From a virus, in the IMG/VR virus record IMGVR_UViG_3300017613_000353, positions 1-46,223 of that record: 46,223 bases of DNA; one strand, written 5' to 3'. The position numbers and the translations under genes were made by a program. The notes below the pieces were generated by a model. The model ran no database searches, had not been told where the DNA came from, and saw nothing but the letters and a program-made list of their open reading frames with translations. Shown here one piece after another: positions 2,436 through 46,202 of this stretch (position 1 is the stretch's first letter; each line of letters opens with the position of its first letter).

Positions 2436-3425
2436 ATGGCCTTAGACCTAACCCAGTTACAGGCAGCTACTGAAAACCTGTGGCTCAATACTGATCCTAT
2501 CGACATTAAATTCACGGACAATGCACTTCTGTGGATGCTGATGAAGCAGTCCAAAGCTGTTGATTTCGATGACTACTTCGTAAAGAACAATGAAACTGTC
2601 GATGGTGGGAAGAAGATCAAGGTACCGTTGGAATACGATGAGTCCAACAGCGGTTCCTATGGTCAAACGACTGTTATCCCACAGTCCAAAGTTGACATCA
2701 TCAACGCTGCCCTGTTTCCGTGGGGTGGGGTGTACGCAAGCAACAGCTTGGGTCTTGACGATCAGGTACAGAACTCCGGTGCGGAAGCTATCGTTGATCT
2801 GGCCTACCGATACACCCAGAATGTTTTGAAGACCGCATGGAAAAAGATGGGCCTTGCAGTCTTCGATCGTACTTCCGGTGATGACTACGCCATCAAGGCG
2901 CTTGAGGATGACCTGTTCAATACTGTCACTTCTACTGCTTACGGTGGAATTGCTGAAGATGACATGGCTCTCTGGGCACCCAACGTGGACACGAGTAACC
3001 CGGCGATTAACTTTGCTGCGTTACAGTTGTTCTGGCGTACCCCGGCAATCGGCCAGCATCGTTCAAAGCGCCCGAACCTTGGTATCACTACCGAAGTTCT
3101 CAAAGACGCTTACGAGAATGGCTTGCAGTCTCAGCAACGGTTCTCCGACCAGAAGATGGTCGAGGCTGGTTTCGACAACGTGCTGCACAAAGGCGCTCCT
3201 GTCGTAGCTGATGACAACGTCAACTCTGGTGATTTCTTTGCGCTGAACACCAACTTCTTGAAATTGAAGGCCCACAAGGATTACAATTTCACCGCTCCTA
3301 AATGGATTGCGAAAGAGGAGTCTGGACAACCGGACAACATCTATTGCAATACTCGCTGGGTCGGTCAGTTGGTGTGTACTCATCGTAAAGCTCACCTAAG
3401 AGCTACTGGTGTGACTGCCAGTTAG
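2436..3425 (+). CDS. major capsid protein (predicted)
   Basis: This 329-residue protein follows the scaffold gene by 13 bases with a strong ribosome-binding site (AAAGGAGAATAAATC), and a terminator-like hairpin follows. The N-terminal helical part, a glycine-rich basic stretch (GGKKIKVPLEYDES) and a following aromatic beta segment resemble the N-arm and E-loop region of HK97-fold capsid proteins used by several podovirus groups. It would build the icosahedral shell. I see no protease gene beside it, so cleavage of an N-terminal propeptide is not suggested. Fold not verified. Confidence 0.8.
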   Translation: MALDLTQLQAATENLWLNTDPIDIKFTDNALLWMLMKQSKAVDFDDYFVKNNETVDGGKKIKVPLEYDESNSGSYGQTTVIPQSKVDIINAALFPWGGVYASNSLGLDDQVQNSGAEAIVDLAYRYTQNVLKTAWKKMGLAVFDRTSGDDYAIKALEDDLFNTVTSTAYGGIAEDDMALWAPNVDTSNPAINFAALQLFWRTPAIGQHRSKRPNLGITTEVLKDAYENGLQSQQRFSDQKMVEAGFDNVLHKGAPVVADDNVNSGDFFALNTNFLKLKAHKDYNFTAPKWIAKEESGQPDNIYCNTRWVGQLVCTHRKAHLRATGVTAS

Positions 3426-22555: not shown

Positions 22556-22889
22556 TTACACAGATAGTCCTAACGAGTGCGTTTTCCATAGGTCACATGA
22601 GACAAGAATGGATAAACAAGACATTCGTTTTGAAAAAATAGAGGACAAACTCGATGAAATTAAGAGTGGCTTGGCTGTTCTTCAAGCCGACTTCGTTTCG
22701 TATTCTCACAACAATATAAAAGAAATAACCAATTTGAATACTTGTTTGCAACAAATCAAGGCAGATATGAAGAGGTTGGAAATTAAGAGTGCCATCTCTT
22801 CTGTTAAGCAAGGTGGCTGGGGAGTTCTGGGTGGCATGGTGCCGGTAGGGATCGCAGTCATAATTTGGTTTCTACAAAGTGGGGCATAA
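22548..22889 (+). CDS. XhlA-like membrane-anchored coiled-coil protein
   Basis: The ATG at 22548 overlaps the end of the cupin gene. The 113-residue product has a coiled-coil with a D-K-x-E-x-I pattern (about residues 23-50, RFEKIEDKLDEIKSGL), a second helix to about 83, and one C-terminal membrane segment (GVLGGMVPVGIAVIIWFL). This order matches haemolysin XhlA-type proteins, which accompany holin and endolysin genes. It directly precedes the amidase, which supports a lysis role. Confidence 0.6.
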   Translation: MSDYTDSPNECVFHRSHETRMDKQDIRFEKIEDKLDEIKSGLAVLQADFVSYSHNNIKEITNLNTCLQQIKADMKRLEIKSAISSVKQGGWGVLGGMVPVGIAVIIWFLQSGA

Positions 22890-23335
22890 TGAGAAAAATC
22901 AATAGGATCATTGTACATTGTTCGGCCTCTTCGTTTGGGGATGCATCCGATATCGACATGTGGCATCGTCAACGTGGATGGTCACAAATCGGGTACCACT
23001 ATGTTATCCTTAATGGCAAGAGGGACAAGCACATCCCGTATACCATAGGGGATGATGGAGTGATCGAAACAGGTCGGCCGGTTGACATTCAAGGCGCTCA
23101 CAGTAAAGGACAGAACCGTGACTCAATCGGGATCTGTGTAATCGGGACTCACTTCTTTACCGGCAAGCAACTATATGAATCGTTGCCCAATTTGTTGGCT
23201 TCGCTTCTTTTTACATATGACCTTACAAAGGATGATGTGTATGGGCATCACGATTTTAATCTTTATAAATCGTGCCCAAACATTAGCACAGACTTGATAA
23301 GGGGTGGGATATCCATGGGGATGCATAACGACTAA
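22889..23335 (+). CDS. N-acetylmuramoyl-L-alanine amidase (T7-lysozyme type endolysin)
   Basis: The 148-residue protein is about the length of T7 lysozyme (151). It keeps the amidase_2 zinc ligands and catalytic residues: His10 (IIVHCSAS), Tyr38 (GYHYVI), His120 (GHHDF), Lys127 and Cys129 (YKSCPN). It cuts the bond between N-acetylmuramate and L-alanine in peptidoglycan at lysis. No signal peptide is present, so it needs a holin. ATG at 22889 overlaps the upstream TAA. In T7 this protein also inhibits RNA polymerase; there is no evidence for that here. Confidence 0.93.
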   Translation: MRKINRIIVHCSASSFGDASDIDMWHRQRGWSQIGYHYVILNGKRDKHIPYTIGDDGVIETGRPVDIQGAHSKGQNRDSIGICVIGTHFFTGKQLYESLPNLLASLLFTYDLTKDDVYGHHDFNLYKSCPNISTDLIRGGISMGMHND

Positions 23336-23358
23336 TTGTAACAGAGAGGAGAAAGATC

Positions 23359-23676
23359 ATGGAAACATTGTTAACATTTTTTGATGGGTACACATCAGGG
23401 GAACTGATGAACATGCTTGTGGTGGCAGTCCTGTTTGCCGTACCGCAGTTCGGGGTTAAGGCAATCAACGCCATCAAGGAACATTTCGGTTTGGAAGGGC
23501 ATAAGGCACAGACACTATTCCTTTTTTCCCTGACCGTAGTTGCTCTTGGGACAATGTTTGTCACGGGGCAGATTACTGAAATTAACTTTACCTTGAAGAC
23601 CTTCCTGTCTACGTTTGCTGCTGCACTCGTACCGGCAAAGGTTGCTTACAAGGCATTCGTAAAGGGGGCTGGATAA
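23359..23676 (+). CDS. membrane protein, candidate holin, 105 aa
   Basis: Two to three hydrophobic segments are visible (about residues 17-32, 50-70 and 80-92), with a charged turn KAINAIKEHFGLEGHKA between the first two. Size, membrane pattern and the place after the amidase fit a holin, which would let the amidase reach the cell wall. The start is preceded by GAGAGGAGAAAGATC. The stop overlaps the next ATG (TAATG). A holin call is probable but not proven. Confidence 0.55.
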   Translation: METLLTFFDGYTSGELMNMLVVAVLFAVPQFGVKAINAIKEHFGLEGHKAQTLFLFSLTVVALGTMFVTGQITEINFTLKTFLSTFAAALVPAKVAYKAFVKGAG

Positions 23677-24257
23677 TGAAGCGTTTTATTTGTTTGCTTG
23701 TCATTATCGGCATGTTCTTTATGGTAGGGTGCGCTGGTAAATCCGTTAACCCGGATTACGATGCATACCTTAACGCAAAGACGGTCGCTATGAAAGAATC
23801 GCCGCCAACCTTCGAGATTGCATGCCCTGATGGGGGCTGTAATTTTAAGAAGCTGGCCTATTACGATCCACGGGATCGCATTGTAATCTCACAGAAGAAT
23901 CCTCATCCCGGCTGGACGTTTGCGTCCAACGTAGCTAAATACGGGTTCTACGGTTTCGCATCTTACTATGCCTTTGACTTCCTTGGTAGCGTTGCTACTA
24001 CCGGGAGTGACGCATACACCAACTCCTTCAATGAGGTCGGTGGTGATAACTTCTACGCACCGACTAATGTGGGTGCTGGGCGAGATGCACAGCGTAACGG
24101 CCCATGGCTGGGTGATGACAATGGTCTCCACGAGTCAGGGAATACAGATCGTAACCGGAGTCCTGATGATTCTGGCAATCGGAATGATAGCCATAATGAT
24201 TCCAATATCACAACGGGTGAAGTTGAACCTGTCGAACCCGTTGAGGTTGTAGAATAA
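23676..24257 (+). CDS. lipoprotein, 193 aa
   Basis: The N-terminus is a lipoprotein signal: KR, a hydrophobic core, then the lipobox VGC with the lipidated Cys at residue 19. The mature part has a Cys pair (CPDGGC) and a low-complexity, Asn/Asp/Gly-rich C-terminus with NRSPDDSGNRNDSHNDS and a final EPVEPVEVVE tail. It would sit in the outer membrane or periplasm. Being in the lysis cassette it could be a spanin component or an exclusion lipoprotein; neither can be decided from sequence. Confidence 0.7.
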   Translation: MKRFICLLVIIGMFFMVGCAGKSVNPDYDAYLNAKTVAMKESPPTFEIACPDGGCNFKKLAYYDPRDRIVISQKNPHPGWTFASNVAKYGFYGFASYYAFDFLGSVATTGSDAYTNSFNEVGGDNFYAPTNVGAGRDAQRNGPWLGDDNGLHESGNTDRNRSPDDSGNRNDSHNDSNITTGEVEPVEPVEVVE

Positions 24258-24709
24258 TGAGGAAGTCTCTCATAATTCTTTTGGTGATCATAGGCTTGGC
24301 CGGATGTGGTCTCCCCTATCAGGGAGCCGTAATGAATCAGCTTGAGTATGCCGGTTCTTTGAATCGGGTTACAAACGAGCTTGGATCGGCTCTCTCACGG
24401 GGAGAAGAATTCGGCCCAGTTGCCAGCCGGGAGATCAGGGAAGCCCTCGATGAGCAACGTGAGGCAGAGGCAATTGCGATCTATGCCCTTGAGCAATACC
24501 GTGTTACCAATGGTATGCTTGGGACAGGGTCTTTGGAAGTCGCATTGTCTGATCTCAAAAAAGCTTCAGAGAAAATAGAAGTCTTAATACATAAGTACGC
24601 CGCATATTCTACGGCTCCGCTCGATGAAGACGTAGGGGCACTTATGGAGCTTTACAGGGAAATGTCTGGAGAGCAAAGAGATCAGCTAATAAAAATAATA
24701 GGAGAGTAA
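24257..24709 (+). CDS. lipoprotein, 150 aa, helical
   Basis: A second lipoprotein signal (MRKSLIILLVIIGLAGC, lipidated Cys17) overlaps the previous stop (TAATG). The mature 134 residues are predicted helical with Glu/Arg/Leu-rich heptads. Outer-membrane spanins are lipoproteins with helical, partner-binding parts, so this could be one. No obvious inner-membrane partner is nearby except the membrane proteins upstream. The pairing is speculative. Confidence 0.7.
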   Translation: MRKSLIILLVIIGLAGCGLPYQGAVMNQLEYAGSLNRVTNELGSALSRGEEFGPVASREIREALDEQREAEAIAIYALEQYRVTNGMLGTGSLEVALSDLKKASEKIEVLIHKYAAYSTAPLDEDVGALMELYREMSGEQRDQLIKIIGE

Positions 24710-25004: not shown

Positions 25005-25445
25005 ATGAAATACCTAAAAATATTTGTGCTACTGATTGCAGCTTTGTTTTTTGTCGTACCGAATGGTTTCGCTCAGGACGAGTGGCATCCACCTACCTCT
25101 GCTTTGGTAGGATGGGATGAGGTCACTACCCTTTCGGATGGAACTCATATTCCTGAATTGGACGTTGTTTTTTATCGAACCTATATCCGCAGGGCTGAAG
25201 CTGGCGAAATTGTCGTTGCGAGTCCAGAGGTTGTAGACCTACAATACTACTTTACTTTTTCAGGTGAAGGCCGCTATCGGGTTGGAGTTCAGGCTGTTAG
25301 GGAACCCGAAGGCGAGGAAGAGATGGAGATAGAATCTGCTATCGCATGGTCGAGCGACCCTGCTGCCTGTGCAGATGGGATCGTCTTCGGCTTTATAACA
25401 TATCTTGATCCGGCTGCTCCGATGAATCTGAGATTTATCCAATGA
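25005..25445 (+). CDS. exported protein with signal peptide, 146 aa
   Basis: A Sec signal (MKYLKIFVLLIAALFFVVPNGFAQ) is visible, with likely cleavage after FAQ or GFA. The mature domain of about 120 residues is beta-rich and aromatic, with a repeated YR/YY pattern resembling an immunoglobulin or fibronectin-type fold (WDEVTTLSDGT, then DVVFYRTYIRR, DLQYYFTFSGEGRYRVGVQ). Start preceded by AAAAGGAGAACAAA. Its stop overlaps the ATG of the hydrolase gene, which suggests the two are partners. Confidence 0.65.
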   Translation: MKYLKIFVLLIAALFFVVPNGFAQDEWHPPTSALVGWDEVTTLSDGTHIPELDVVFYRTYIRRAEAGEIVVASPEVVDLQYYFTFSGEGRYRVGVQAVREPEGEEEMEIESAIAWSSDPAACADGIVFGFITYLDPAAPMNLRFIQ

Positions 25446-26011
25446 TAGTTAAGCCGGGAGATATATTCTTCTGTCAGTCTTCCTCATTACTGGGGAAGAC
25501 TATTCAATTTCTGAGCCGGGGCAAATACAACCATACGGGAATATTTGTTTTCCAGAATTCGCTAAGATGGGGACGATCTATCGAAGCGCTGTGGAACGGA
25601 GTAGTAAGCCATTCTATTTGGGACTACTACTCCGGTCGGTCAGTAAAGATTGAAATCTGGAGACCATTAAACATCTCAGACCGGGACAGGGTCAAGATCG
25701 CATTCGAGGCTTACAAGGATATCGGTGTAGGATACGGATGGTTTGACCTTACAGCCCAGTTTATGGATGCCCTAATTCCTTTCAATCCGTACATCTTCCG
25801 GCGGCTTGGGAAGTATGGGAAGGAAAGCGTGTGTTCTAATTTTGTGGCAAAGTGGTATCGTTCTGTTGGTCTGTCTTTTGGCCTTGAGCTTAATCAGGTA
25901 CAGCCAGATGATCTCCAGCGATTCTGTGCGGCAACTGAGGGACGGTACTATGAGAAGGTGAGAAAACTTAGCTATTTAATTGATGGAGACTCTGATGCCA
26001 ACGCTTGTTAA
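25442..26011 (+). CDS. permuted NlpC/P60-like (YiiX/YaeF-type) hydrolase
   Basis: The 189-residue protein has the permuted papain-like order: KPGDIFFCQS near the start, a catalytic His in YNHTGIFV (His31), and the catalytic Cys within SVCSNFV (Cys131), preceded by a segment with YGWFDL. Members of this fold cleave peptidoglycan peptides or act on lipids. No signal peptide is present. ATG overlaps the stop of the exported protein; its own end overlaps the giant gene by 17 bases. A peptidase or amidase role is inferred. Confidence 0.7.
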   Translation: MIVKPGDIFFCQSSSLLGKTIQFLSRGKYNHTGIFVFQNSLRWGRSIEALWNGVVSHSIWDYYSGRSVKIEIWRPLNISDRDRVKIAFEAYKDIGVGYGWFDLTAQFMDALIPFNPYIFRRLGKYGKESVCSNFVAKWYRSVGLSFGLELNQVQPDDLQRFCAATEGRYYEKVRKLSYLIDGDSDANAC

Positions 26012-29000
26012 ATGTATAGGTGTTTTAACTGGTAAGGAAAAAGCTGAATGCCTTACCAACGCCAAGAAATTTATGGGGGAAGGTTTCTCTGCTGAAGAAG
26101 AGGTCACGGGAGAAACAAAGGTAAAACTGGGCAAATTTCTTGATCAAGAAATCAAGGGTTTTCAGGAAAGTTCAGAGAAGCTATCTCCTAAAAAGGACAC
26201 TCCGAAAGACAAGATAATTGCCAAGCTCATTGGAAAGCCGAAGCTTCAAATAGAGGGTACCCCTGACCAGCCCTATACGAGAAAGACCGTTCAGCAAGCG
26301 TTTCCGGGGTCGAATGTTACACAACGATCAGATGGGTCAATGGTTGTCAGGCTGCCGAATGGAACAACCATCAACGTCTGGGAAGGAAACATACAGGTAA
26401 CGGACTCTGAGGGTAATAAGAGGGCTGTCCGTGGGGCATGGATCGATCGATATCGGACGATGTGGCTAACCTCTACAGCCGGAACTGATACTGTATTCCA
26501 TGAATCATTCCATGCAGCTTGGGCAATGGCTTTAGATAGAGCCGATAAGGCTGCGCTGATCAAGAAGTATGGCACAGAGGAAGTGGCTGCTAAGGCTTAT
26601 GCCAAATGGAAGGTGAAGAGGCTGGCTCGAAATCCTATCTTCCAAAAAATATTTGACTTCTTTTCCACCATTCGCAAGGCTATGTATCCGGGGTCTCCCG
26701 GTGCGGTCTTTGACCGGATCCATTCCGGGGAAGTCTTCAAGAGACACTCTGCCCTATTATCTGATATCGGCCCTGCTGCTTATGCTCTGGAGCATGATGA
26801 CAAGAAGTGGGAATACGATTACGATAATGTCGAGTTCGGTACCGTTAACAACCGGATAGCGAATGAACTGAATTGGATGGAATTAATGATAGGCAGTTCC
26901 AAACGAGCTATCAGTTTACCGGGGAAAGCGGTAGCAAAGGCAAGCGAAAGAGAAAGCCTGAAAAAGAAGGGTGTTAAGTTCAGGGGCGATCGAAGGATTG
27001 TTAGATCCATCACCGCACATGATCTGGGCAAGGATGTCGATGAGGCCTTACAGTCTGGTCGACTTGCTGAATTGATGGACGAGAAAATCTCTCCAATACA
27101 ATTGGCCGACAAACGTGAACTCAAGGGTAATGAACGGGCACGGTTTATTCGGGAACTGAAAAACCTTCGCAACGATACTGATTATCTTTCCACAAATTCC
27201 AAGACCGGGACTTCATCTAATTTCATCTTAGCGACTTGTCAACCTACCAGCCCATGCAAGCATTGCTACGCAGCCAGAGCCATGTTCAGATGGAGTGCTA
27301 TTCAAAAGGCATGGAAGGATACCATTCGGATATTGACTAACCCAACGGGTTGGGCTGAGAGGGTTTCTGAGGAAGTGAACATCAAGTCAAAGATCGAGAT
27401 GCCTATGGTCAGGATGCTGGGATCTGGAGACCTTACTTTTAAAGAGCAGGTCACAGCGTTCAACCACTTGGCTACCCTGATCGACCGGCCGATCCATGTC
27501 TTCAGTCGGCACCATGACAATCTTGAGAAGCTGAAGTCTCAGCCTAAATCTCCATTCGTTAAGATGGGTTCGATCGATGCACAGCTATACGAGACCTACG
27601 GTCACAAGTTCTTGACAGAGAACTTGAAGAAGCGTGGCATCATCAATGCTTTCCTACATACCGATGCATCTGAATACAAAGCAATGGACAAGCTGTACAA
27701 AGATAAATCGCTGGGGTTAGTGTTATCTGCATCTCATAAAATTCATAAACAATTAGCGAATCATAATTTTGGTCTATCTCAAGGTTCCTGTCCGTGTGAT
27801 GCGGATGAGCGCAGCCTTTACGGATCATGCATAGAATGTGCTTTTTCTGAGTCTGGCTGCTTCATGGCTGTCGCTGATTTGGGCTACGATATCGATGGAA
27901 AAATCTGGAAAGCAAGTGATATGAAAGCTCCAAAGCTTTACTACTTTACGGAGTTTATTGATCGTAAACCCGTGGATCTTATGAGTAAAGCTGAGTATGA
28001 AAAAGCAAAGGGGATGAAGTCTTTACGCAAGGATAAGAAGAGAAGAATGTTCGACTACGAGGGAGCTACCCTTGGCAAGGCTCGTGGATACTTTACTACT
28101 TTCGATCAATTAGTGTACAAGTCTATCAAAAATATGCAGTTGCGAGTTGACACTTATCTGAAAGGTTTCAAGGCTGCTGCATGGAAAAGGTATAAGAAGG
28201 ATCACCCGAATGCTGTTAGAAAGTCTGTTTCCAGAAAGATTAGTGCTATTGCCAAAAAGGATTACAAAAAATGGTTGAAGGGTGGGAAGAAAACTCCCTT
28301 TCCGGGTGAGAAAAAATCTATCAAGCTTTCATCTGTTATCCCTGACGAGTTGGAATCGACTGACCTTGTATACTCAGACGAGATAATTAATGATGATACC
28401 GTTACCATTGATACGGTTGAGAAGGCTGAACTGTATATTGAAAAGCTTAGAGCGATCGGTGCGAAAGCCAAGACTGGTAACTTCATGCTGAAAGGTGGGC
28501 CTATCCAAGATCCTGTCTATGTAAAGGACTGGAAGATATTAAGCAAGGAAGAACAGGCACAGCAAAAGTTAAATGCAAAGATCACAGAACAAAAAATCAA
28601 GTCGGCCGAATCCTCAAGGAACCAGATCCCTGCTTCATTTAAAAGGGTTGACTGGAAGCTGGGCAGTACGAATATCGATATTGGTGGGGGCAAGTATGAC
28701 AAGGCTACCGATTATCTCAAGGGCAAGGGTGTTACGAACCTTGTCTACGACCCCTTCAATCGATCCGAAGAATTTAATTACGAAATTATCCGGCAGCTTT
28801 CCATGGGGCCGGTTGATACTGCGACTGCAGCCAATGTTTTGAATGTTATTTCAGAAAAGGCACATCGAGTCAATGTCGTGCGTCAAGCTGCCAAGGCAAT
28901 CAAGGCTGATGGTGTTGCTTACTTCCAGATCCATGAGGGAGATGCCGATGGTAATGGCAGGGTAACCAAGGTTAAGGACGGGAAAGACATGGTATGGCAG

Positions 29001-32000
29001 AATCATCAGCCTACCAAGTGGTACATCGATGAGGTCAAGGAATACTTCAAGACTGTGAAAGTCGCTAACAAAACCATCACGGCCACTAATCCTATCAAAG
29101 ATAACTCCATGGCAACATGGGAAGTCAATGGGATGCCGCAGTATTCGATTACACAGGTAAAGGAAGACCCTGTCATTCTGCCGCCTGATCTGGCCGAATT
29201 GGAAGAGCCGTTTGATCTCTACTCTGGAACTGATCTTGTAGAAGCAATAAAATATGCTCAAGCATTAGAGTTGAAGCTGAGAGCATATGACCTTGCAACT
29301 CCAAAAGATGACTTCGTTGAATACTACAGGGATGAAACTGAAGAGGAGTTCCACGGTGTCGCAGATAACTCCATTGAATTGATTAATGGAATTTATGACC
29401 ATTGGCTTGAGAGACACAGGGGTGGCGAAGGTTGGGCAAACCAGATGTTCGATATCGATGGAGAGCAGGGTATATACAATAAACCAAGTGAAGCATTTAC
29501 AAATGGCGTAGTCGGCAAGATGGATACCGGAAGCTGGTCGTTCGATGTGGAACATGAAATCCTTCAAGCAGTTGAGGCAGAACATGGGATGCCAGAGATG
29601 CCACGAACCGTAGAAGGTGTACTCAAAGAACTTGATGAAGAGTACGGGGAAGACATTGATGAGTTGAAACAGCAGCTTGAAGATGGAGAGATCGAGGACT
29701 ACAATCTCGATGAGATGCTGCACGATCGTAGGGTTGAAGATTATCAATATGCTGATAAAATGATATATGGTGGGGAAAGCGGTGCAGAGTTGGGCGAAAT
29801 ATTGGATCAACAAGGATGGGACTCTCCTATCGGAGATACCATTCTTGAAGAATTGCAACTTAGCGGATATGAGGCATGGAGAGCAAATTGGGGATCAGTA
29901 TTAAAACAGACCGAAGATCGTATAGAAGCACAGCGCAAAAAGTTGGACGAGGCTGTGACACCGGCAGAGAAGCTGTCTGCTATTACGTTTGCCCTAAATG
30001 AAGAACACGTTTATGGCACGATGTCTGAGCATATGGACATAAGTGATACAGAGCTTGATGAGCTTTCCAATATGGGCGAGAATATCAAGGACTTCTCCAT
30101 GTTACTGCGGCGTAACTACCGGCCCGGAGCAATTCAATACAGCCTTGCCAACCCTTGGGATAAAGAAGGTTGGGTTGTCCGTACTGAGGGTGTAAGCGAC
30201 AAGTCTTTCAGACAGGTTGATGAAACAATCGCTGTAACAAGGGAAAATTTTGTTTACAGGGGGATGACTGAGGCTGAATTTAAAAATACTGTGGGAAAAA
30301 ACAAGGGGGTTGAATCTCGCAAGGACTTTTCTTTCGGAAAAGAAGGAACAAGTTTTGGAGAGGATTTTCAGACTGCTGAAAGTTATGTCAATTATGGCAG
30401 GGATGATCCACGGGAAACAGGGAAGCCCACATATCTCGTAGAAGTAGAAAAGGGTGAGAATTTAAAAAGGAATCGTCAGGGATATTATGAGGCAGAAGAC
30501 GCAATCCCCTCTTCCCAAATTAGCAGGGTGTGGAAAATGGAAGCAAGCGGCAGGGATGTCGTTGCTACACCAATACAGCCTCAGTACGGTCTCGCTTCGC
30601 AAGAGGTGATCCGCAGCTTGAAGACCGCAGACTTGCTGAAACATGATCGCCTAAAGAGTGCCAAAATCCATAAGACTCCAGACAACAACCTGCGAGTCAC
30701 CTTTCCTAATGGTAGGGGTTTTACGATCTATCAGGTAAACCACATTACCAAGGACAAGGCTGCCTTTGAAGCTGGCTATGGTGAAGCAAGTATGGAAACT
30801 GGCGAAGCGATTGCTGGTGAATACTGGCACGAGAAAGAGTCTTTGAAGCTCTCTCGCTATGCCGGGGTTTATACGATCGACCATGAGTTGATGCATTTTC
30901 TTGAACGGTCAGGTATGCTGAACCGTGCTGAGATCGCCGCTATTAACCGGGAGCTTGACAAGCAAGGCAAGGATAGGACAGAGGAAGAACGAGCCAAGTG
31001 GGTAGAGCGTGAGATGGCTAAGAGGGACATGGAGAGGCTCGAACCTAAGTCCATGGCAGAACGTGTGCTGAAAAGTATTAAGGACTTTATCGATACCATG
31101 CTGAACGCTTTTGGCAAAGCTACGCCTGAGAATGTTCTGCGACAGATGGAGTCTGGGAAAATCTTCGAGCGCAAAGCTACCGACAAGCTGTCCCATGAAA
31201 TTCAATACTCTAAATTGGCAGAGGCTTGGTACTCTCAGATGGAGCAGTTTCTTGGTGGTGACAAAGGGCTGCCGGGGAAAAGTACGCCTCAAGCGATGCT
31301 GCAAGTGATTGACAAGTTCGCCACTCCCCCGGTTGAAATCACGGACGAGATCAGCAGGTTGGACAAAATCCATCAGTCTCATCCCAACGCCTTTACTAAA
31401 GCTGAGTTAAAGAAAGCCCGGAAAAAGGCTGGCAAATATAAAGGTCATTTCAAAAGAGAGGAACTTGACTGGTCTGGGCTAAGGGATGAACTGGAAGAAA
31501 AAGCAAGAGTTAAAAAATGGCGATCAACAAAAGCTGGCAATCAATGGATTGTGCAGTTAGATGGTTCAAGCGATGATCTGACTGGTGGAAAAAGGTATTA
31601 TATGTTTGATGAGGAGTTTGGGATGCAAGAAAACAAAACTCCTTCTTTTCAAACATTAGAGGCAGCCATGCATTTTGCAGCGGAAGTCTCTGCTGAACGC
31701 AAGGGTGAGAAGGATGCACCAAGGCCTGATAGTGCTTATGTTGATTTTCAACAATTGCCAACCGACAAAATAACCAAGAAAGAAATCCTTGAATATCTGT
31801 CTGACAATATAATGTTCGTTGAAGAGATCATTAAATATCCTTCTGGTCATCCGAAGGCGAAGGCTGGAGAAACATTGGATGAAGGAGAAGATAGTGAATA
31901 TGATATTATATGGCACGATACAGTAGAAGTGATGGGTAGGCCCATGACGTGGGGTGATACTGAAGCAGAGGGTGTGATCGATTGGCAAAGGGATCTACCT

Positions 32001-35000
32001 GCTCTATCTTGGTTTGCTGATTCCGATCCCGATCAGCTAATAGCAGATAATCCTTCCAAGCACTTTACAGAAAAAGATGTTGAGCAGCTAAGATTTGCTC
32101 AAAAGCTGGGCGAGAAGAGAGGTCGTGATAAGATCGAGCGTGAGTTCGGTGAGTTCGCTCAACCTTCATGGCGGACAATTCTTCAGGAAACACAGAAAAT
32201 ACTTAGCAAAGGGGCAGTCTATCATGCTTGGCTGCCGTCAGGAACATGGGAAATAAAACCATCCGGTGAGATGTTTCCAAACGGTAGACAACCCGTGGAA
32301 CTGTTCCATAATGGTACTGTAGTGGAAGAGTATGACTCAGCAGAGATAGCCAAGGTTGAATCACAGGAATTAACAGGAGAACCCTTTGTGCGACCCGTAC
32401 CAGAAGAAGTAAAAGACACGAGAGTCAAGCACAACATGACATCGAGAAGGCTCGAAGGTAAAAGCAAGGGGTATCGTGAGATGGTGTTTCGGATACCTGC
32501 TTTGACTGAAAAGTGGGAGTTAGGATTTGTTGAGCCAGTCCATTATAACGAAACCAACATTGTTGTCTTCGTTAGATTCGATGAACGACAGCTACTGGAT
32601 GGAAGCAGAGTTCTTTATATCGATGAGATTCAAAGCGATCTGCATCAGAGGGGCAGAAAGAAGGGATATAAAGGAGTGCCGATGCAGAAAGGCTTTAAGG
32701 CCACCACAATGCTTCCCGGTGGAATTGAGCTTTCCGGCATTGGAAAGACTGAGGAAAAAGCTATCGAGTCTGCGAACCTACAGTTACGAGCTGGGGGTAA
32801 AGATCCCATTGATGCCGGGAAATATACTGTCGTACCCAACATGGTACGCAATCATCAAGACCATCTTTCTGAAAGAGAATCTGTACCCAATGCCCCCCAC
32901 AAAAAAGAGTGGCCGTTACTGGCAATGAAACGCATGGTGCGGTGGGCAGCAGAGAATGGATATGACAAATTGGCATGGAGTTCGGCTAAAATCCAGAATG
33001 AACGATGGGGCTTAGATAAGCACATCGATCAATTATACTGGGAAAGAACCAAGACTACAAGCAAGGGTCGGGGAGAACATTACAGATATACTATTGTTGG
33101 TTCAAAACACGATAGGCAAATCGTAGAAAAAGATAATCTAACCGAAGATGATCTTGAAGCGCATGTCGGAAAGGAACTTACTGAAAAGATTCTTGCTGGG
33201 GTAGGCTCACAACCGGAAGGTGGCCCTGACATGGGTTCATTGGACAACCTCGATCTGAAGGTCAAAGGCTTGGGAATGATCGGCTTCTATGATCGGATGC
33301 TGCCTAAAATGATGAAGAGCTTCTTCGGCAAGAAGGCATGGGGCAAGGCAGAAATAGAAGTTGTAACACTTAACGAGAGGCCACCAGTAAATAAGAAAAA
33401 ATACAAGCGTGATACCGAAGTGACGATAGCAATTTTGGATGATGACGGGGCACCCAGAATGGTAACAATTCCGGCGTATTCAACAAGTCTCCCCGGTATT
33501 GTTGTCACTCGATTTAAGGATCCACTCATTCAGGACGGAGCAGTATCTCTTACTATTACTCATCAGCCAAGTGGGCTGGCTATAGTTCCTCATGGTTTTA
33601 ATAAGACCATTGCAGAGGCTCAAGAAATGGTCGACAGAATTGGTGAAAGGACAGATGTAGACTGGACTGTGTCTGAAGGGGAGTTAGTTGCAATGATAAC
33701 GGCAAAAACTCTCGTGGGTGAGCTGCTTAGAAATACCGTAAATGAAATTAAAATGGCAAAGACTAAAGGGAAAAAGTATGCACCGGAAGATGTCTGGGCT
33801 ATCTCTATCAACAAGACAATGCGTGACAAGGCCAAGTCAGAGGGTATGCCTCAGTATGCTACTGCTCAAGCGTCTGCTGCTGTGAGAGGGCTGACCACAA
33901 AAATTACCAACCCTATCTCTGAATCTGAATTCTTCAAACAGAAGATGCATGACTGGGTGGACAAAAACCTTGCCATCAAAGAGATCCAAGACTTTATCGG
34001 TGGGGTCAAGGAAAGACTCAATGTCTTCATGCAAGAGACTCAGCGGCCAAAGGTTACGGCATATCGAACAGAGAAGTTCTATGACGAGATGGTTACCCCT
34101 ATAATCGAGGGTGCTGCCAAGGCCAAGCTGAAGCTATCAGAGATCGAGGAGCTTGCCCATGCACTCCATGCTGAAGAAGCCAATAAAGCATTGCGTGAGG
34201 CCGCTGCTCTGGAACAGGTTAATGATATTATCGACATGCCCAAGACGGTTGGTGTTACACCGGCAATGAAAAATGGGCTGCGTGATGAACTTGAGAATGT
34301 CGATAGGATGGGGACAGGCCCAGCCGGGAATCTCAGGGTGCTGGAAAACTTCCTTGTTAAACATGGGGATCTCGTTCCCGAACTGCGAGATTACTGGACG
34401 GTCTTCAGGGATGAAGCGGCTGGTATGACCGATAAGGAAGCCAAGCAGATAATTAATAAATGGCAAGGTAATGCCAAAAAAGCCCAGATATACGACTTAG
34501 TCGGCAAGATAAGTGACATTAACGATCGGAAGTTGGGACTGCTTTTTATGAGTGGTCAGATCAACGAGGAAGAGTTCAAGGCGTATTCAGGCAAGTATAA
34601 AAATTACGTTCCTCTTTATAGAGAAGGATTCGAGGGGGAACCTATTTCCAGCGCTGGCAGAGGCCTCTCTGCTCCGGGCAAGCCTGTCAAGGCTCGTGGT
34701 GGATCTCTGCGGAAAGTTACGGACATCTTAGCCAATACAATAAAAAATTATGAGATGGCAATCATCCGTTCTGAGAAAGCCCGATCTGCTGAAATGCTGC
34801 TGGGCATGGTCAGGGAGAATCCAAAGCCGGGTTTCTGGAAAGTAACCAAAAGCAAAAAAGCTCCGTACTTCGATAGCATGGGCAACCTGCGGCACTATCC
34901 CACCATGAAGGTAGGACTAAACGAAATGAATGTAAGGGTTAATGGAGAGAACTTCGTTATCCAAGTCGATCGAAATAACAAGACCGCTTTGAGAATGATA

Positions 35001-36596
35001 GAAACTCTCAGGGGAGAAGGTGTGCAGTCTGGGCCTTTGATCAATGCATTATCCAAGGTCAACCGCTATTTGTCTGCAATCAATACTATGTACGCACCTG
35101 AGTTTATTCTATCGAACTTTTTCCGTGATATTCAAACAGGCAGTATCAACATAAAAGACTCAGGCTTGAATACAACAGCCATGCTGAAGAAGGTCGGCCA
35201 GTCAGTCAGAACCATTGCAGGGATAGAATCCGGTAAAGGTAATGTCTCTCAAGCAGAGCAAGACCTTTATCGCCGCTACCGTCAGGCTGGTGGAAAGATT
35301 TCTTGGATGGACGTACACCAGACAGCCGAATCGGTTGCAAAGAAAATCGAGGCTGAATACCAGTATGCAGCCGGTAACCGGCCAGCAAGAAATACTCTGA
35401 GAAAATGGAACAAGTTCTGGCAGAGTATGAATACATCGATTGAAAATGGTGCGAGGTTTGCTGCGTTCAAACTTGCGATTGAAGCTGGAAAAAGCGATAA
35501 AGAAGCTGCAGTTATTGCTTCTGACCTGACAGTCGACTTTACAAGGAAGGGTGCAAAGGGACAAGTCCTCAATTCGCTCTACCTCTTTGCCAATGCTGGC
35601 ATACAGGGCAGCTTCCGAATGTTCCGGGCGCTGAAAAACAAACGGGTCAGACATGCTGCCGGTGGAATCGTTATGTTGGGCTTTACTGTCGGTGCTTGGA
35701 ATGCATTAAACGGAGATGATGATGACATCGAGGATTATTTGAAGGAACGCAACATAGTTATCCGCATTCCCGATTCAGACAAGATGATCAAAATCCCATT
35801 GCCTTGGGGTTTCAATGTCTTCTTCAATATGGGTGACGAGGCGGCCAAGGCTGTGTTCAAAGAGAACTACGATCCTTTGAATGGTGCTGCGAGAATGGTG
35901 TCCGTAATGGGCAATGCATTTAACCCATTACAATCAGGCACCGTGCTTCAGACCTTGCTACCCACAATAGCAGATCCTTTTGCTATGGTAGGAGAAAACA
36001 AAAATTGGTTCGGCGGCTCATTAATGCCAGAGAGAAATATATTCGCAAAGGTTCCAAAACCAGACTCGCAGAGGTTTTTCCGGTCAGCAAGCTCCCCATC
36101 AAAATGGGTTGCTGCGTCTTTGAACTCCATGACCGGGGGTGATGAGATCGAGAGAGGTGGAATTGATGTCAGCCCTGAGACCCTCGATATGGTAATTGAT
36201 CAAGTTGGTGGGTCTGCTTTCCGGTTCATTTCTGACTTGACATTGATGCCGGGACGTATTAAGAGAGACGAGGTTAAAGTTCATACCATCCCATTCCTTC
36301 GCAGGGTGGCTGCGGAGAAGTCTGAATATGTGGATAGAAAAAAATATTTTAAGGCGAGAGAGGAAATCAATATTGCAAAAGAACAGCTTAAATTGTATCC
36401 TGAAATGCGCCGGGAGAAAGCACACATCTTGCGGTTGGATTCATCCCTGAGACAATCTGAGAAGATGCTGAGGGTACTGAGAAAGCGCCTGAAGGGTACG
36501 CAAGACAGGGAAGAGGAACGTGCGATTTTAGACCGAATGAATGTAGTCTACCAGAATTTTATGATACGCTACGACCGTGTAGCAGAGGGGGAATAA
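25995..36596 (+). CDS. giant polyvalent protein, 3533 aa
   Basis: The open frame reaches back to TTG 25980, but ATG 25995 has GGAG at correct spacing. Domains in order: zincin-like HESFH (about 169-173); a Cys-cluster domain (C415, C421, C424 and a second cluster about 598-628) resembling phage Gp88-type proteins; a methyltransferase-like fold with IDIGGG (about 893); an ADP-ribosyltransferase-like region (YRGM, about 1419-1526); and a second zincin HELMH (about 1630-1634). Then comes a conserved polyvalent domain with EIQSD..RKKGY (about 2209), AENGYDKLAW (about 2310) and GFYDRMLP (about 2430). An LPD38-like C-terminal region follows (about 3146-3290), then a coiled-coil end. Such proteins are thought to travel with the DNA and blunt host defences. 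Confidence 0.85.
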   Translation: MPTLVKCIGVLTGKEKAECLTNAKKFMGEGFSAEEEVTGETKVKLGKFLDQEIKGFQESSEKLSPKKDTPKDKIIAKLIGKPKLQIEGTPDQPYTRKTVQQAFPGSNVTQRSDGSMVVRLPNGTTINVWEGNIQVTDSEGNKRAVRGAWIDRYRTMWLTSTAGTDTVFHESFHAAWAMALDRADKAALIKKYGTEEVAAKAYAKWKVKRLARNPIFQKIFDFFSTIRKAMYPGSPGAVFDRIHSGEVFKRHSALLSDIGPAAYALEHDDKKWEYDYDNVEFGTVNNRIANELNWMELMIGSSKRAISLPGKAVAKASERESLKKKGVKFRGDRRIVRSITAHDLGKDVDEALQSGRLAELMDEKISPIQLADKRELKGNERARFIRELKNLRNDTDYLSTNSKTGTSSNFILATCQPTSPCKHCYAARAMFRWSAIQKAWKDTIRILTNPTGWAERVSEEVNIKSKIEMPMVRMLGSGDLTFKEQVTAFNHLATLIDRPIHVFSRHHDNLEKLKSQPKSPFVKMGSIDAQLYETYGHKFLTENLKKRGIINAFLHTDASEYKAMDKLYKDKSLGLVLSASHKIHKQLANHNFGLSQGSCPCDADERSLYGSCIECAFSESGCFMAVADLGYDIDGKIWKASDMKAPKLYYFTEFIDRKPVDLMSKAEYEKAKGMKSLRKDKKRRMFDYEGATLGKARGYFTTFDQLVYKSIKNMQLRVDTYLKGFKAAAWKRYKKDHPNAVRKSVSRKISAIAKKDYKKWLKGGKKTPFPGEKKSIKLSSVIPDELESTDLVYSDEIINDDTVTIDTVEKAELYIEKLRAIGAKAKTGNFMLKGGPIQDPVYVKDWKILSKEEQAQQKLNAKITEQKIKSAESSRNQIPASFKRVDWKLGSTNIDIGGGKYDKATDYLKGKGVTNLVYDPFNRSEEFNYEIIRQLSMGPVDTATAANVLNVISEKAHRVNVVRQAAKAIKADGVAYFQIHEGDADGNGRVTKVKDGKDMVWQNHQPTKWYIDEVKEYFKTVKVANKTITATNPIKDNSMATWEVNGMPQYSITQVKEDPVILPPDLAELEEPFDLYSGTDLVEAIKYAQALELKLRAYDLATPKDDFVEYYRDETEEEFHGVADNSIELINGIYDHWLERHRGGEGWANQMFDIDGEQGIYNKPSEAFTNGVVGKMDTGSWSFDVEHEILQAVEAEHGMPEMPRTVEGVLKELDEEYGEDIDELKQQLEDGEIEDYNLDEMLHDRRVEDYQYADKMIYGGESGAELGEILDQQGWDSPIGDTILEELQLSGYEAWRANWGSVLKQTEDRIEAQRKKLDEAVTPAEKLSAITFALNEEHVYGTMSEHMDISDTELDELSNMGENIKDFSMLLRRNYRPGAIQYSLANPWDKEGWVVRTEGVSDKSFRQVDETIAVTRENFVYRGMTEAEFKNTVGKNKGVESRKDFSFGKEGTSFGEDFQTAESYVNYGRDDPRETGKPTYLVEVEKGENLKRNRQGYYEAEDAIPSSQISRVWKMEASGRDVVATPIQPQYGLASQEVIRSLKTADLLKHDRLKSAKIHKTPDNNLRVTFPNGRGFTIYQVNHITKDKAAFEAGYGEASMETGEAIAGEYWHEKESLKLSRYAGVYTIDHELMHFLERSGMLNRAEIAAINRELDKQGKDRTEEERAKWVEREMAKRDMERLEPKSMAERVLKSIKDFIDTMLNAFGKATPENVLRQMESGKIFERKATDKLSHEIQYSKLAEAWYSQMEQFLGGDKGLPGKSTPQAMLQVIDKFATPPVEITDEISRLDKIHQSHPNAFTKAELKKARKKAGKYKGHFKREELDWSGLRDELEEKARVKKWRSTKAGNQWIVQLDGSSDDLTGGKRYYMFDEEFGMQENKTPSFQTLEAAMHFAAEVSAERKGEKDAPRPDSAYVDFQQLPTDKITKKEILEYLSDNIMFVEEIIKYPSGHPKAKAGETLDEGEDSEYDIIWHDTVEVMGRPMTWGDTEAEGVIDWQRDLPALSWFADSDPDQLIADNPSKHFTEKDVEQLRFAQKLGEKRGRDKIEREFGEFAQPSWRTILQETQKILSKGAVYHAWLPSGTWEIKPSGEMFPNGRQPVELFHNGTVVEEYDSAEIAKVESQELTGEPFVRPVPEEVKDTRVKHNMTSRRLEGKSKGYREMVFRIPALTEKWELGFVEPVHYNETNIVVFVRFDERQLLDGSRVLYIDEIQSDLHQRGRKKGYKGVPMQKGFKATTMLPGGIELSGIGKTEEKAIESANLQLRAGGKDPIDAGKYTVVPNMVRNHQDHLSERESVPNAPHKKEWPLLAMKRMVRWAAENGYDKLAWSSAKIQNERWGLDKHIDQLYWERTKTTSKGRGEHYRYTIVGSKHDRQIVEKDNLTEDDLEAHVGKELTEKILAGVGSQPEGGPDMGSLDNLDLKVKGLGMIGFYDRMLPKMMKSFFGKKAWGKAEIEVVTLNERPPVNKKKYKRDTEVTIAILDDDGAPRMVTIPAYSTSLPGIVVTRFKDPLIQDGAVSLTITHQPSGLAIVPHGFNKTIAEAQEMVDRIGERTDVDWTVSEGELVAMITAKTLVGELLRNTVNEIKMAKTKGKKYAPEDVWAISINKTMRDKAKSEGMPQYATAQASAAVRGLTTKITNPISESEFFKQKMHDWVDKNLAIKEIQDFIGGVKERLNVFMQETQRPKVTAYRTEKFYDEMVTPIIEGAAKAKLKLSEIEELAHALHAEEANKALREAAALEQVNDIIDMPKTVGVTPAMKNGLRDELENVDRMGTGPAGNLRVLENFLVKHGDLVPELRDYWTVFRDEAAGMTDKEAKQIINKWQGNAKKAQIYDLVGKISDINDRKLGLLFMSGQINEEEFKAYSGKYKNYVPLYREGFEGEPISSAGRGLSAPGKPVKARGGSLRKVTDILANTIKNYEMAIIRSEKARSAEMLLGMVRENPKPGFWKVTKSKKAPYFDSMGNLRHYPTMKVGLNEMNVRVNGENFVIQVDRNNKTALRMIETLRGEGVQSGPLINALSKVNRYLSAINTMYAPEFILSNFFRDIQTGSINIKDSGLNTTAMLKKVGQSVRTIAGIESGKGNVSQAEQDLYRRYRQAGGKISWMDVHQTAESVAKKIEAEYQYAAGNRPARNTLRKWNKFWQSMNTSIENGARFAAFKLAIEAGKSDKEAAVIASDLTVDFTRKGAKGQVLNSLYLFANAGIQGSFRMFRALKNKRVRHAAGGIVMLGFTVGAWNALNGDDDDIEDYLKERNIVIRIPDSDKMIKIPLPWGFNVFFNMGDEAAKAVFKENYDPLNGAARMVSVMGNAFNPLQSGTVLQTLLPTIADPFAMVGENKNWFGGSLMPERNIFAKVPKPDSQRFFRSASSPSKWVAASLNSMTGGDEIERGGIDVSPETLDMVIDQVGGSAFRFISDLTLMPGRIKRDEVKVHTIPFLRRVAAEKSEYVDRKKYFKAREEINIAKEQLKLYPEMRREKAHILRLDSSLRQSEKMLRVLRKRLKGTQDREEERAILDRMNVVYQNFMIRYDRVAEGE

Positions 36597-38790: not shown

Positions 38791-38970
38791 ATGTATGTTA
38801 CTGAAAAACAAATGATGGAAATCGAAATGGCGCTACTTGGGCTGGCCGCTTTTGGGGAACCGGCAGCAGACGCTTTGCAAGACATCGGATACACAGCGAC
38901 AAGGGGTGAGCTTCTGAAGCGAGTCGAGACGGCTAACGAAGTTCTGGAAAAGATCAACGAACTGTATTAG
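38791..38970 (+). CDS. small helical protein, 59 aa
   Basis: The frame starts at ATG 38791 after GGGAGAGAAATC and encodes a 59-residue protein made of amphipathic helices (EKQMMEIEMALLGLAAF, GELLKRVETANEVLEKINEL). It ends six bases before the first DnaA box of the origin candidate. No family is recognised; a regulatory or antirepressor-like role would be speculation. Confidence 0.55.
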   Translation: MYVTEKQMMEIEMALLGLAAFGEPAADALQDIGYTATRGELLKRVETANEVLEKINELY

Positions 38971-39190
38971 ATTCTACTTGTGGATAATTCTCGCTGTTTA
39001 GTTGTTGTAATTCAATCCTATGGTGTTTTTCTATGTTATCGCTGACATTAGTCTGTAAATATTCAATAGAAAGACGGACAAAGTTATTAACCGGCTCAAA
39101 TCACGGACTTATGATTGTGACTAAACGCTGGCAAGCTATGAGATTGTTGATTGATTCGGTTAATTTGGAATTATCCACAAGTTGAATCGG
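38971..39190 (+). other. candidate replication origin bounded by inverted DnaA boxes
   Basis: This non-coding stretch is closed by ACTTGTGGATAATTC (38976-38990) and its exact reverse complement GAATTATCCACAAGT (39168-39182). Each contains TTATCCACA, the consensus DnaA box. Nested shorter inverted pairs occur inside: GTTTAGT (38996-39002) with ACTAAAC (39120-39126), and ATTAACC (39086-39092) with GGTTAAT (39158-39164). It looks AT-rich and has no supportable gene. I infer an origin that uses host DnaA. Confidence 0.6.
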
Positions 39191-44813: not shown

Positions 44814-44984
44814 ATGTTTGATCAAAAATCGTTTATTGTTTTGTTGGTTAGTTTGTGCATGCTCTTCATTCTTACAACGCTAAACCTATCATGGGCAGGG
44901 GAGAAGCCACAGCCGTGCCCACCGTACCTTTCAATCTACTGTGAGTCCGGGGTCATAAAAAAAGGAGGGAAAAATGACACTTAA
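44814..44984 (+). CDS. small exported or membrane-anchored Cys protein, 56 aa
   Basis: ATG at 44814 follows TAGGGGATAAC. A hydrophobic N-terminus (FIVLLVSLCMLFILTTLNLSWA, about 7-28) looks like a Sec signal with cleavage after SWA. The short mature part contains PQPCPPYLSIYC and ends in a Lys/Gly tail. Its end overlaps the next gene by 11 bases, so both are expressed together. The two exported Cys-containing proteins may act as a pair. Confidence 0.5.
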   Translation: MFDQKSFIVLLVSLCMLFILTTLNLSWAGEKPQPCPPYLSIYCESGVIKKGGKNDT

Positions 44985-45834
44985 AAAAGTATTTTATTTG
45001 GCAATCGCTGTTTGTTTGTTAGTTTGCAACGCTAATGCGGGCACACCACCATGTCCACCACCACCGCCCTGCGATCCGTGTGATTCGTGTTGCAAAGAGT
45101 GTGAACCGTGCGATCCGTGTGATTCGTGCTGCCCTCCCTGCAAAAAATGTCCGCCCGGAACGGAATGTAGGCCGCCGTGTATCCAAGAAGGCTGCCCACC
45201 GGGTACGGAATGTCGGCCACCTTGCACAACAGAAAAATGTCCTCCCGGCACCGAATGTCGTGGGCCATGCCCTAAATGTCCGCCTACGGTTCCATGCCCA
45301 TCACCTAAAACAGCGGATTGCCCATCGTGTTCAGGTGGCACTTGCTGCCGTGTTCACCTTGATTTCTATGTGGATAACGAATTACGCACCAGCCGTTTAT
45401 GGGGTGAAGTTCCGGGGCTGAACAACCATTTATTGTTTCCCGGTGGCACACAATGTGTGGTAGACGAAGTGCGTTGGCTGATGGGTAACAACGCCAAAGC
45501 CAAATTGTATTGCGCCGGTGCCACAGCGACCAAAACCGAATATGCCTATGCTGAATCGAATGGAACGTGCGATACTCAGATCACGTTCTACGTCAACGAG
45601 AGATTAAATTCGATTCGGCGTTGGTGCGAAGTGCCGAAACTGCATGAAACCATCGAATTACCGGATGGTTCGCTGTGCGGTATAGGCAAGGTGCTTTGGC
45701 ACGTTGATTCTCACGCCAATGTTGAGATTTATTGCACCGTTGGCAAAACCACGGCTGCGGCTTTATCGGTGGACGATGTTTTCACAGATGAAGAATCGGC
45801 TGGATTGTGTTTTATTAACAGCTTTAAATTGTAA
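44974..45834 (+). CDS. exported Cys/Pro-rich repeat protein with duplicated domain, 286 aa
   Basis: A Sec signal (residues 1-22, CNANA before the mature part) is followed by a Cys/Pro region at 24-125 with 26 Cys, two DPCDSCC copies and three CPPGTEC units. Two copies of a 58-residue domain follow (about 125-182 and 199-257), each with FYV(D/N)..L..R..W, E-V-P, PGG/PDG..C and YC. Ribosome-binding site AAAGGAGG. It is probably secreted and disulphide-bonded. I know no phage family like it. Confidence 0.7.
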   Translation: MTLKKVFYLAIAVCLLVCNANAGTPPCPPPPPCDPCDSCCKECEPCDPCDSCCPPCKKCPPGTECRPPCIQEGCPPGTECRPPCTTEKCPPGTECRGPCPKCPPTVPCPSPKTADCPSCSGGTCCRVHLDFYVDNELRTSRLWGEVPGLNNHLLFPGGTQCVVDEVRWLMGNNAKAKLYCAGATATKTEYAYAESNGTCDTQITFYVNERLNSIRRWCEVPKLHETIELPDGSLCGIGKVLWHVDSHANVEIYCTVGKTTAAALSVDDVFTDEESAGLCFINSFKL

Positions 45835-45854
45835 CAATGGCCGTTACTGGTGGG
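45832..45854 (+). repeat. 23-bp direct repeat, copy 1 (copy 2 at 46106-46128)
   Basis: The two copies agree at 22 of 23 bases. Each begins at or next to the stop codon of the upstream gene and continues with ATGGCCG and ACTGGTGGG. They flank the gene at 45863-46108, so the unit gene plus repeat could have been inserted or duplicated. Copy 2 also forms part of the inverted repeat at 46120-46202. Confidence 0.8.
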
Positions 45855-45862
45855 AGGATAAA

Positions 45863-46108
45863 ATGGGAAAACCTATAAATATTATTTTTGATGGGCCACC
45901 CGGACATGATGCACCCTGTTTTGTAGAGGTAGAAACAGACGATGGAAAATCTATCAAGATCGGAGAGTGGATACAGAAAGGGAATTATTGGGCGCTTCGG
46001 ATCACAGCTATGCCTACTGAGGCAGATTTGTGTAAATGCGACCCAAAGCCTGATACCTATTGGTACGAAGAAGAATTATGCGAAGGTTGCAAAAAACCAC
46101 GCTTATAA
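45863..46108 (+). CDS. small protein with Cys pairs, 81 aa
   Basis: ATG at 45863 follows GGGAGGATAAA, inside the long open frame that starts earlier but overlaps the secreted protein gene. The product (MGKPINIIFDGPPGHDAP at the start) has a beta half with FVEVETDDGKSIKIGEW, then four Cys (CKCDP, CEGC) that could hold zinc. It is flanked by the 23-bp direct repeats. I do not recognise the family; a small zinc-binding phage protein is likely. Confidence 0.6.
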   Translation: MGKPINIIFDGPPGHDAPCFVEVETDDGKSIKIGEWIQKGNYWALRITAMPTEADLCKCDPKPDTYWYEEELCEGCKKPRL

Positions 46109-46119
46109 CAATGGCCGGT

Positions 46120-46202
46120 ACTGGTGGGGTATGGTTATGATCTCTATTCGTTGTAACCGGAAGTGCGAATAAGGGTAAACTTAAAAGCCCTGCCCCACCA
46201 GT
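46120..46202 (+). other. inverted repeat in the leader of the last gene
   Basis: ACTGGTGGGG (46120-46129) pairs with CCCCACCAGT (46193-46202), spanning about 60 bases with possible inner pairing (AGGG with GCCCT). The strand between them holds only a 13-codon frame (46131-46172) that I do not accept. A ribosome-binding site AAAGGAGAACAA follows. It could act as a translation or transcription control element. Folding not computed. Confidence 0.45.

Follow-up and report, generated by a model that had tools for sequence, protein, structure and literature searches.

Cor of phage T1 and Llp of phage T5 are among the described systems closest to the locus analysed here. The Cor locus encodes an exported protein together with two upstream genes for small envelope proteins, and Cor blocks FhuA from the periplasmic side (PMC13164509). 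Like Cor and Llp (PMC13164509), the present protein is phage-encoded, apparently exported and probably an envelope protein, and its gene belongs to a small cassette in which genes for small envelope proteins lie upstream; Cor and Llp are lipoproteins, whereas this protein lacks a lipobox, and no sequence or fold match to either was found. One segment of the protein shares its very high Cys content and CxxC pairs with metallothioneins, from which the protein differs in being predicted as exported, Pro-rich, devoid of CxC and without a family match. Another part recalls small phage proteins of the phrog_33073 type. Those have one domain, are unexported and lack three conserved Cys, whereas this protein carries two Cys-bearing copies, joined to a Cys/Pro arm and probably exported.

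The window, that is, the whole stretch of DNA analysed, is a 46,223-base IMG/VR virus record. An open reading frame of 286 aa with an ATG start was found on the plus strand at 44974-45834, where the initial annotation had placed the gene of an exported Cys/Pro-rich protein whose C-terminal domain is duplicated. Its product is a genuine protein that is under selection, and an unusual one. The features of the locus are as follows.

44814..44984, + strand: 56-aa peptide, predicted to be exported, with the signal-like segment MFDQKSFIVLLVSLCMLFILTTLNLSWA and the predicted mature sequence GEKPQPCPPYLSIYCESGVIKKGGKNDT, which has 2 Cys; own Shine-Dalgarno-like sequence.
44974..45834, + strand: whole gene of the 286-aa Cys/Pro-rich protein, probably exported; ATG start.
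44974..45039, + strand: signal-peptide-like N-terminus, residues 1-22, MTLKKVFYLAIAVCLLVCNANA with predicted cleavage before G, type I, without lipobox; sequence reading and hydrophobicity scan.
45040..45345, + strand: Cys/Pro arm, residues 23-124, 25 Cys (26 with C125); residue counts.
45067..45132, + strand: CDPCDSCC twice, as 27-nt copies 39 nt apart with 93% identical DNA; repeat scan, repeat family D5.
45148..45270, + strand: three CPPGTECxxPC units with a 45-nt period, at 45148-45180, 45193-45225 and 45238-45270; pattern scan.
45343..45519, + strand: beta domain 1, residues 124-182; domain-domain alignment.
45565..45741, + strand: beta domain 2, residues 198-256, five predicted strands, AlphaFold2 mean pLDDT 80.9; alignment and model.
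45742..45831, + strand: C-terminal tail, residues 257-286, with one Cys (279); sequence reading.

The whole protein reads as a fusion in which a signal-like peptide and a Cys/Pro arm precede two copies, both bearing Cys, of a small domain that is likely one widespread in phages. The sequence AAAAAAAGGAGGGA lies 5' of its ATG and constitutes a strong Shine-Dalgarno-like ribosome-binding site. The N-terminus runs from MTLKK through the hydrophobic stretch VFYLAIAVCLLVC to NANA followed by G, corresponding to the n-, h- and c-regions and a signal peptidase site, and these sequence features together with the hydrophobicity indicate that the protein is probably exported via Sec. Neither a lipobox nor an acylated Cys was found near the signal, where the residue preceding Cys is Val (AIAVC, LLVC).

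The upstream frame at 44814-44984 overlaps the start of the Cys gene by 11 nt, which makes joint expression plausible and agrees with the short exported Cys protein that the initial annotation had described alongside. The 56-aa peptide matched no family in Pfam, PHROGs, NCBIfam or PADLOC. The overlap of a gene for a small exported Cys peptide with that for a larger exported Cys protein could also suggest that competing bacteria are attacked by a secreted effector of the toxin or bacteriocin type, the peptide being its partner or immunity protein. We regard this as very unlikely, given that no toxin or defence family was matched (Pfam, NCBIfam, PADLOC), no release machinery was seen and the peptide itself appears to be exported, unlike most immunity proteins.

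On the downstream side, a 20-nt repeat, CAATGGCCGNTACTGGTGGG, occurs at 45835-45854 and 46109-46128, directly after the stops of the Cys gene and of the next gene (45863-46108), with 0 occurrences expected by chance. That next gene encodes a DGPPG-type small phage protein matching phrog_28893 (E 6.8e-9), which is of unknown function. A hairpin (12-bp stem, z -1.93) without an Rfam match occupies intergenic DNA at 46120-46202.

The 286-aa protein has 35 Cys, of which 2 lie in the signal region (14 and 18), 26 in residues 23-126 and 7 in the C-terminal half. The 104 positions of residues 23-126 also hold 30 Pro, and the count of 26 Cys is the one earlier given for about 100 residues. The three CPPGTEC units that had been noticed start at residues 59, 74 and 89 with a period of exactly 15 residues, and the window contains 3 copies of the extended form CPPGTECxxPC versus 0 expected from shuffles. 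The three pairwise DNA comparisons between the CPPGTEC units yield 12 synonymous and 0 non-synonymous changes in total, showing selection on the protein sequence and arguing against an artefact of repeat DNA. A chance open frame in such DNA, encoding no real protein, could draw on a second open frame that runs across the arm (45035-45421) and on the orphan status of the protein in every whole-protein search. It was rejected as largely refuted and is extremely improbable, since the units vary only synonymously, two homologous domains lie in one frame and a strong ribosome-binding site precedes a signal-like start.

The composition of the arm bears on what we consider the main rival to a role as an envelope accessory, namely that the protein is an exported metallothionein-like protein whose arm captures soft metals where the habitat is sulfidic and rich in metals and thereby protects the infected cell or the phage, the beta domains being mere anchors. 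Besides the 26 Cys in 104 residues, CxxC pairs are enriched, with 10 in the arm versus 5.45 in shuffles (74 of the 5000 shuffles reach 10), and acidic residues sit between the Cys. The mature protein has 33 Cys, an odd number, so that full disulphide pairing inside one chain is impossible and at least one Cys must be free, metal-bound or shared between chains. Known Dsb oxidants turned up in only some genomes of the presumed host order (VKOR in 20 of 58, DsbB in 1 of 58), and the redox state of the arm therefore cannot be assumed; this patchiness, too, suits metal binding. CxC, however, is a mark of many metallothioneins, and the arm has none versus 5.4 expected. No metallothionein profile was matched by the whole protein in Pfam or NCBIfam, or by the arm searched alone in Pfam, where the arm had no match of any kind, and the protein is very rich in Pro and apparently exported rather than cytosolic. 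Metal binding as the main function is thus unlikely.

Searches with the whole 286-aa protein returned no match in Pfam, PHROGs, NCBIfam or PADLOC, among PDB sequences, in phages and plasmids (tblastn), or in IMG/VR and GTDB (exact 8-residue patterns). The initial annotation had named close similarity to a virion or host protein with an assigned function as contrary to its reading; none of these searches gave such a match. It had also proposed looking for the CPPGTEC units across environmental phages; CPPGTECxxPC proved absent from IMG/VR by pattern search, and likewise from 395 genomes of the phylum of genome G016. The literature on Cys-rich phage proteins offered nothing to the point. The idea of a secreted phage protein is supported, export by the sequence features and the arm by the synonymous-only variation of its units.

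The two C-terminal domains of 59 residues share 20 identities in 62 ungapped columns (32% identical), and their pairwise score of 112 compares with 48 for the best of 1000 shuffled pairs. By this sequence comparison the domains are homologous to each other, which bears out the twice-repeated domain of the initial annotation. Cys at domain positions 2, 38 and 57 is kept in both copies. A structure of domain 2 was predicted from the two-row alignment, and the five models ranged from pLDDT 80.9 down to 52.2.

When the model of domain 2 was compared with viral structures by Foldseek, the best match was a 61-aa protein of Sinorhizobium phage phiN3 (A0A0F6YPC5, E 9.2e-4, TM 0.81/0.83), followed by tens of uncharacterised phage proteins, mostly of 55-80 aa. 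A0A0F6YPC5 was taken to be PHIN3_372 (AKF13635.1), the sole profile match among the six 61-aa phiN3 proteins fetched, a set that left out phiN3 200001-206713. Independently of the fold comparison, phrog_33073, the family of PHIN3_372, was the one PHROG that hmmscan assigned to the domain; the match was weak and came from domain 2 (E 0.054), and domain 1 gave none. In the reverse direction, a profile built from the two window domains alone ranked the phiN3 protein first among 3,496 small open reading frames of four phages (E 6.4e-4). In pairwise comparison with the phiN3 family protein, domain 2 scored 49, a value reached by 0 of 2000 shuffles, and domain 1 scored 20, reached by 88 of 2000. A core is shared between the window domain and the phiN3 protein (EVPKLHETIELPDGSLCGIGKV against VPRVGEGVELPNGCLYRVMKV), and the counterpart from Erwinia phage Hena1 has HLPRVGEYVTVDCRLYKVVKI. 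The phiN3 protein lacks Cys at domain positions 2, 38 and 57 and has other Cys.

Taken alone, the sequence link to the phrog_33073 family is weak. The fold and sequence lines are each modest, and together they make it likely that the window domain belongs, as a divergent and Cys-bearing form, to a large set of small (about 55-80-aa) phage beta proteins of unknown function. The earlier statement that no family was recognised consequently stands for the whole protein and for the Cys arm, which had no matches, and no longer holds for the doubled domain, in view of the phiN3 fold match, phrog_33073 and the reverse profile.

Other searches with the domain were less productive. DUF3913 (PF13052) was matched by the phiN3 protein alone, at 14.8 bits against a cut-off of 25, with no match for the window domains, and the literature on DUF3913 held nothing to the point. 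Fold searches of the PDB gave no convincing match (best E 0.2 in Foldseek, best Z 6.5 in VIA-align). With domain 2 as the sole query, tblastn against phages gave nothing up to E 10, and the two-domain alignment likewise had no match in IMG/VR. Nor did the two-domain profile match anything in 389 genomes from the class of G016, an absence that is weak evidence as the profile has two rows. A three-row alignment run against phages Atu_ph07, Hena1 and pf16 missed even expected members, and its empty answers are not decisive. A degenerate domain pattern matched a single IMG/VR contig, antisense to a helicase gene, and this match was rejected as chance.

The genome setting of the gene was also considered. 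The window encodes a major capsid protein at 2436-3425, an SU10-type adaptor, two tRNA genes, replication genes, NinB, an IstB-like ATPase and SSB, and the Cys gene sits shortly after SSB, beside small accessory genes. No terminase or portal gene was seen in the window. Relatives carry, in this order, terminase, portal, homologues of 794-1072 and 1589-2422 and the capsid gene, so the record is probably incomplete. Relatives of the capsid protein were found in IMG/VR contigs (up to 74% identical), in two Desulfobacterales genomes (47-48%) and in Methanosarcina virus MetMV (47%). The copies in Desulfobacterales genomes make a Gram-negative anaerobic host likely, as far as capsid sequence relatedness can tell. 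The similar identities to MetMV and to the Desulfobacterales copies suggest that head genes cross domains, or that one of the host assignments deserves a check. An inverted pair at 38970-38990 and 39168-39188 contains the DnaA-box-like TTATCCACAA and may mark a replication origin.

This setting also bears on whether the protein is a virion component, that is, a fibre, decoration or adhesion protein whose N-terminus resembles a signal by chance. Between terminase and portal, relatives encode proteins with signal-like starts (contig L083, 3273-5183; contig L084, 378-1070), and by eye the latter resembles a protein of contig L115 (5202-5654) that has no signal. The Cys gene, however, follows SSB near small accessory genes, away from the tail genes; such high Cys content is unusual in virion proteins, which are assembled in the reducing cytoplasm, and no virion family was matched in PHROGs. 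This alternative appears quite unlikely.

Two adjacent genes for exported products also recall a spanin pair, and a spanin-like or wall-binding accessory of lysis might be considered. The lysis cassette, however, lies 20 kb from the Cys gene, at 22865-24709, with an amidase (22865-23335) and then a holin-like protein and two lipoproteins (23359-24709), the genes of the lipoproteins overlapping by one base; moreover, the 286-aa protein has neither a lipobox nor a second transmembrane segment after the signal. A lysis role is very unlikely. Beyond the cassette, 25005-25445 encodes another putatively exported protein (146 aa, signal-like start, no family match). The product of 25442-26011 resembles by eye a permuted NlpC/P60 peptidase, the label of phrog_1128 being enoyl-CoA hydratase-like, and the product of 25980-36596 is 3,538 aa long and includes an LPD38 polyvalent-protein domain. 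The Cys gene lies outside the lysis cassette, and the only relative whose SSB-to-terminase interval is intact lacks it; both observations fit an accessory gene.

The reading we favour, tentatively and at somewhat less than even chances, is that of a phage accessory protein exported via Sec during infection that works in the host envelope, where excluding superinfecting phages or remodelling the envelope would be the likeliest benefit. A small cytoplasmic phage beta domain would have been moved outside the cytoplasm, and in the simplest history export would have come first, followed by the gain of three Cys per copy and then by duplication. The paired domains may form a binding head for an envelope target (a receptor, a transporter or a wall component) in the periplasm or at the surface of a Gram-negative anaerobe, and the Cys/Pro arm may form an extended spacer that disulphides or metal ions keep stiff. 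Binding by the beta domains is assumed, as their family has neither a known function nor a solved relative. The leading use would be superinfection exclusion, for which Cor and Llp set the precedent, with the 56-aa exported peptide of the overlapping gene as a probable partner.

A slightly bolder and correspondingly less certain proposal is that the protein represents a new class of phage envelope effectors, in which a widespread small phage domain, exported, arranged in tandem and adapted to disulphides, would serve as the binding head of an ultra-Cys/Pro-rich arm and act beyond the cytoplasm of a Gram-negative anaerobe. The matched small beta proteins are common in phages, and the exported, doubled and Cys-bearing form suggests a binding module that is portable; it is also a form that could be studied outside the cell. 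In the Cys/Pro arm, moreover, we would have a striking example of an extremely Cys-rich segment that a phage puts into the envelope of an anaerobe.
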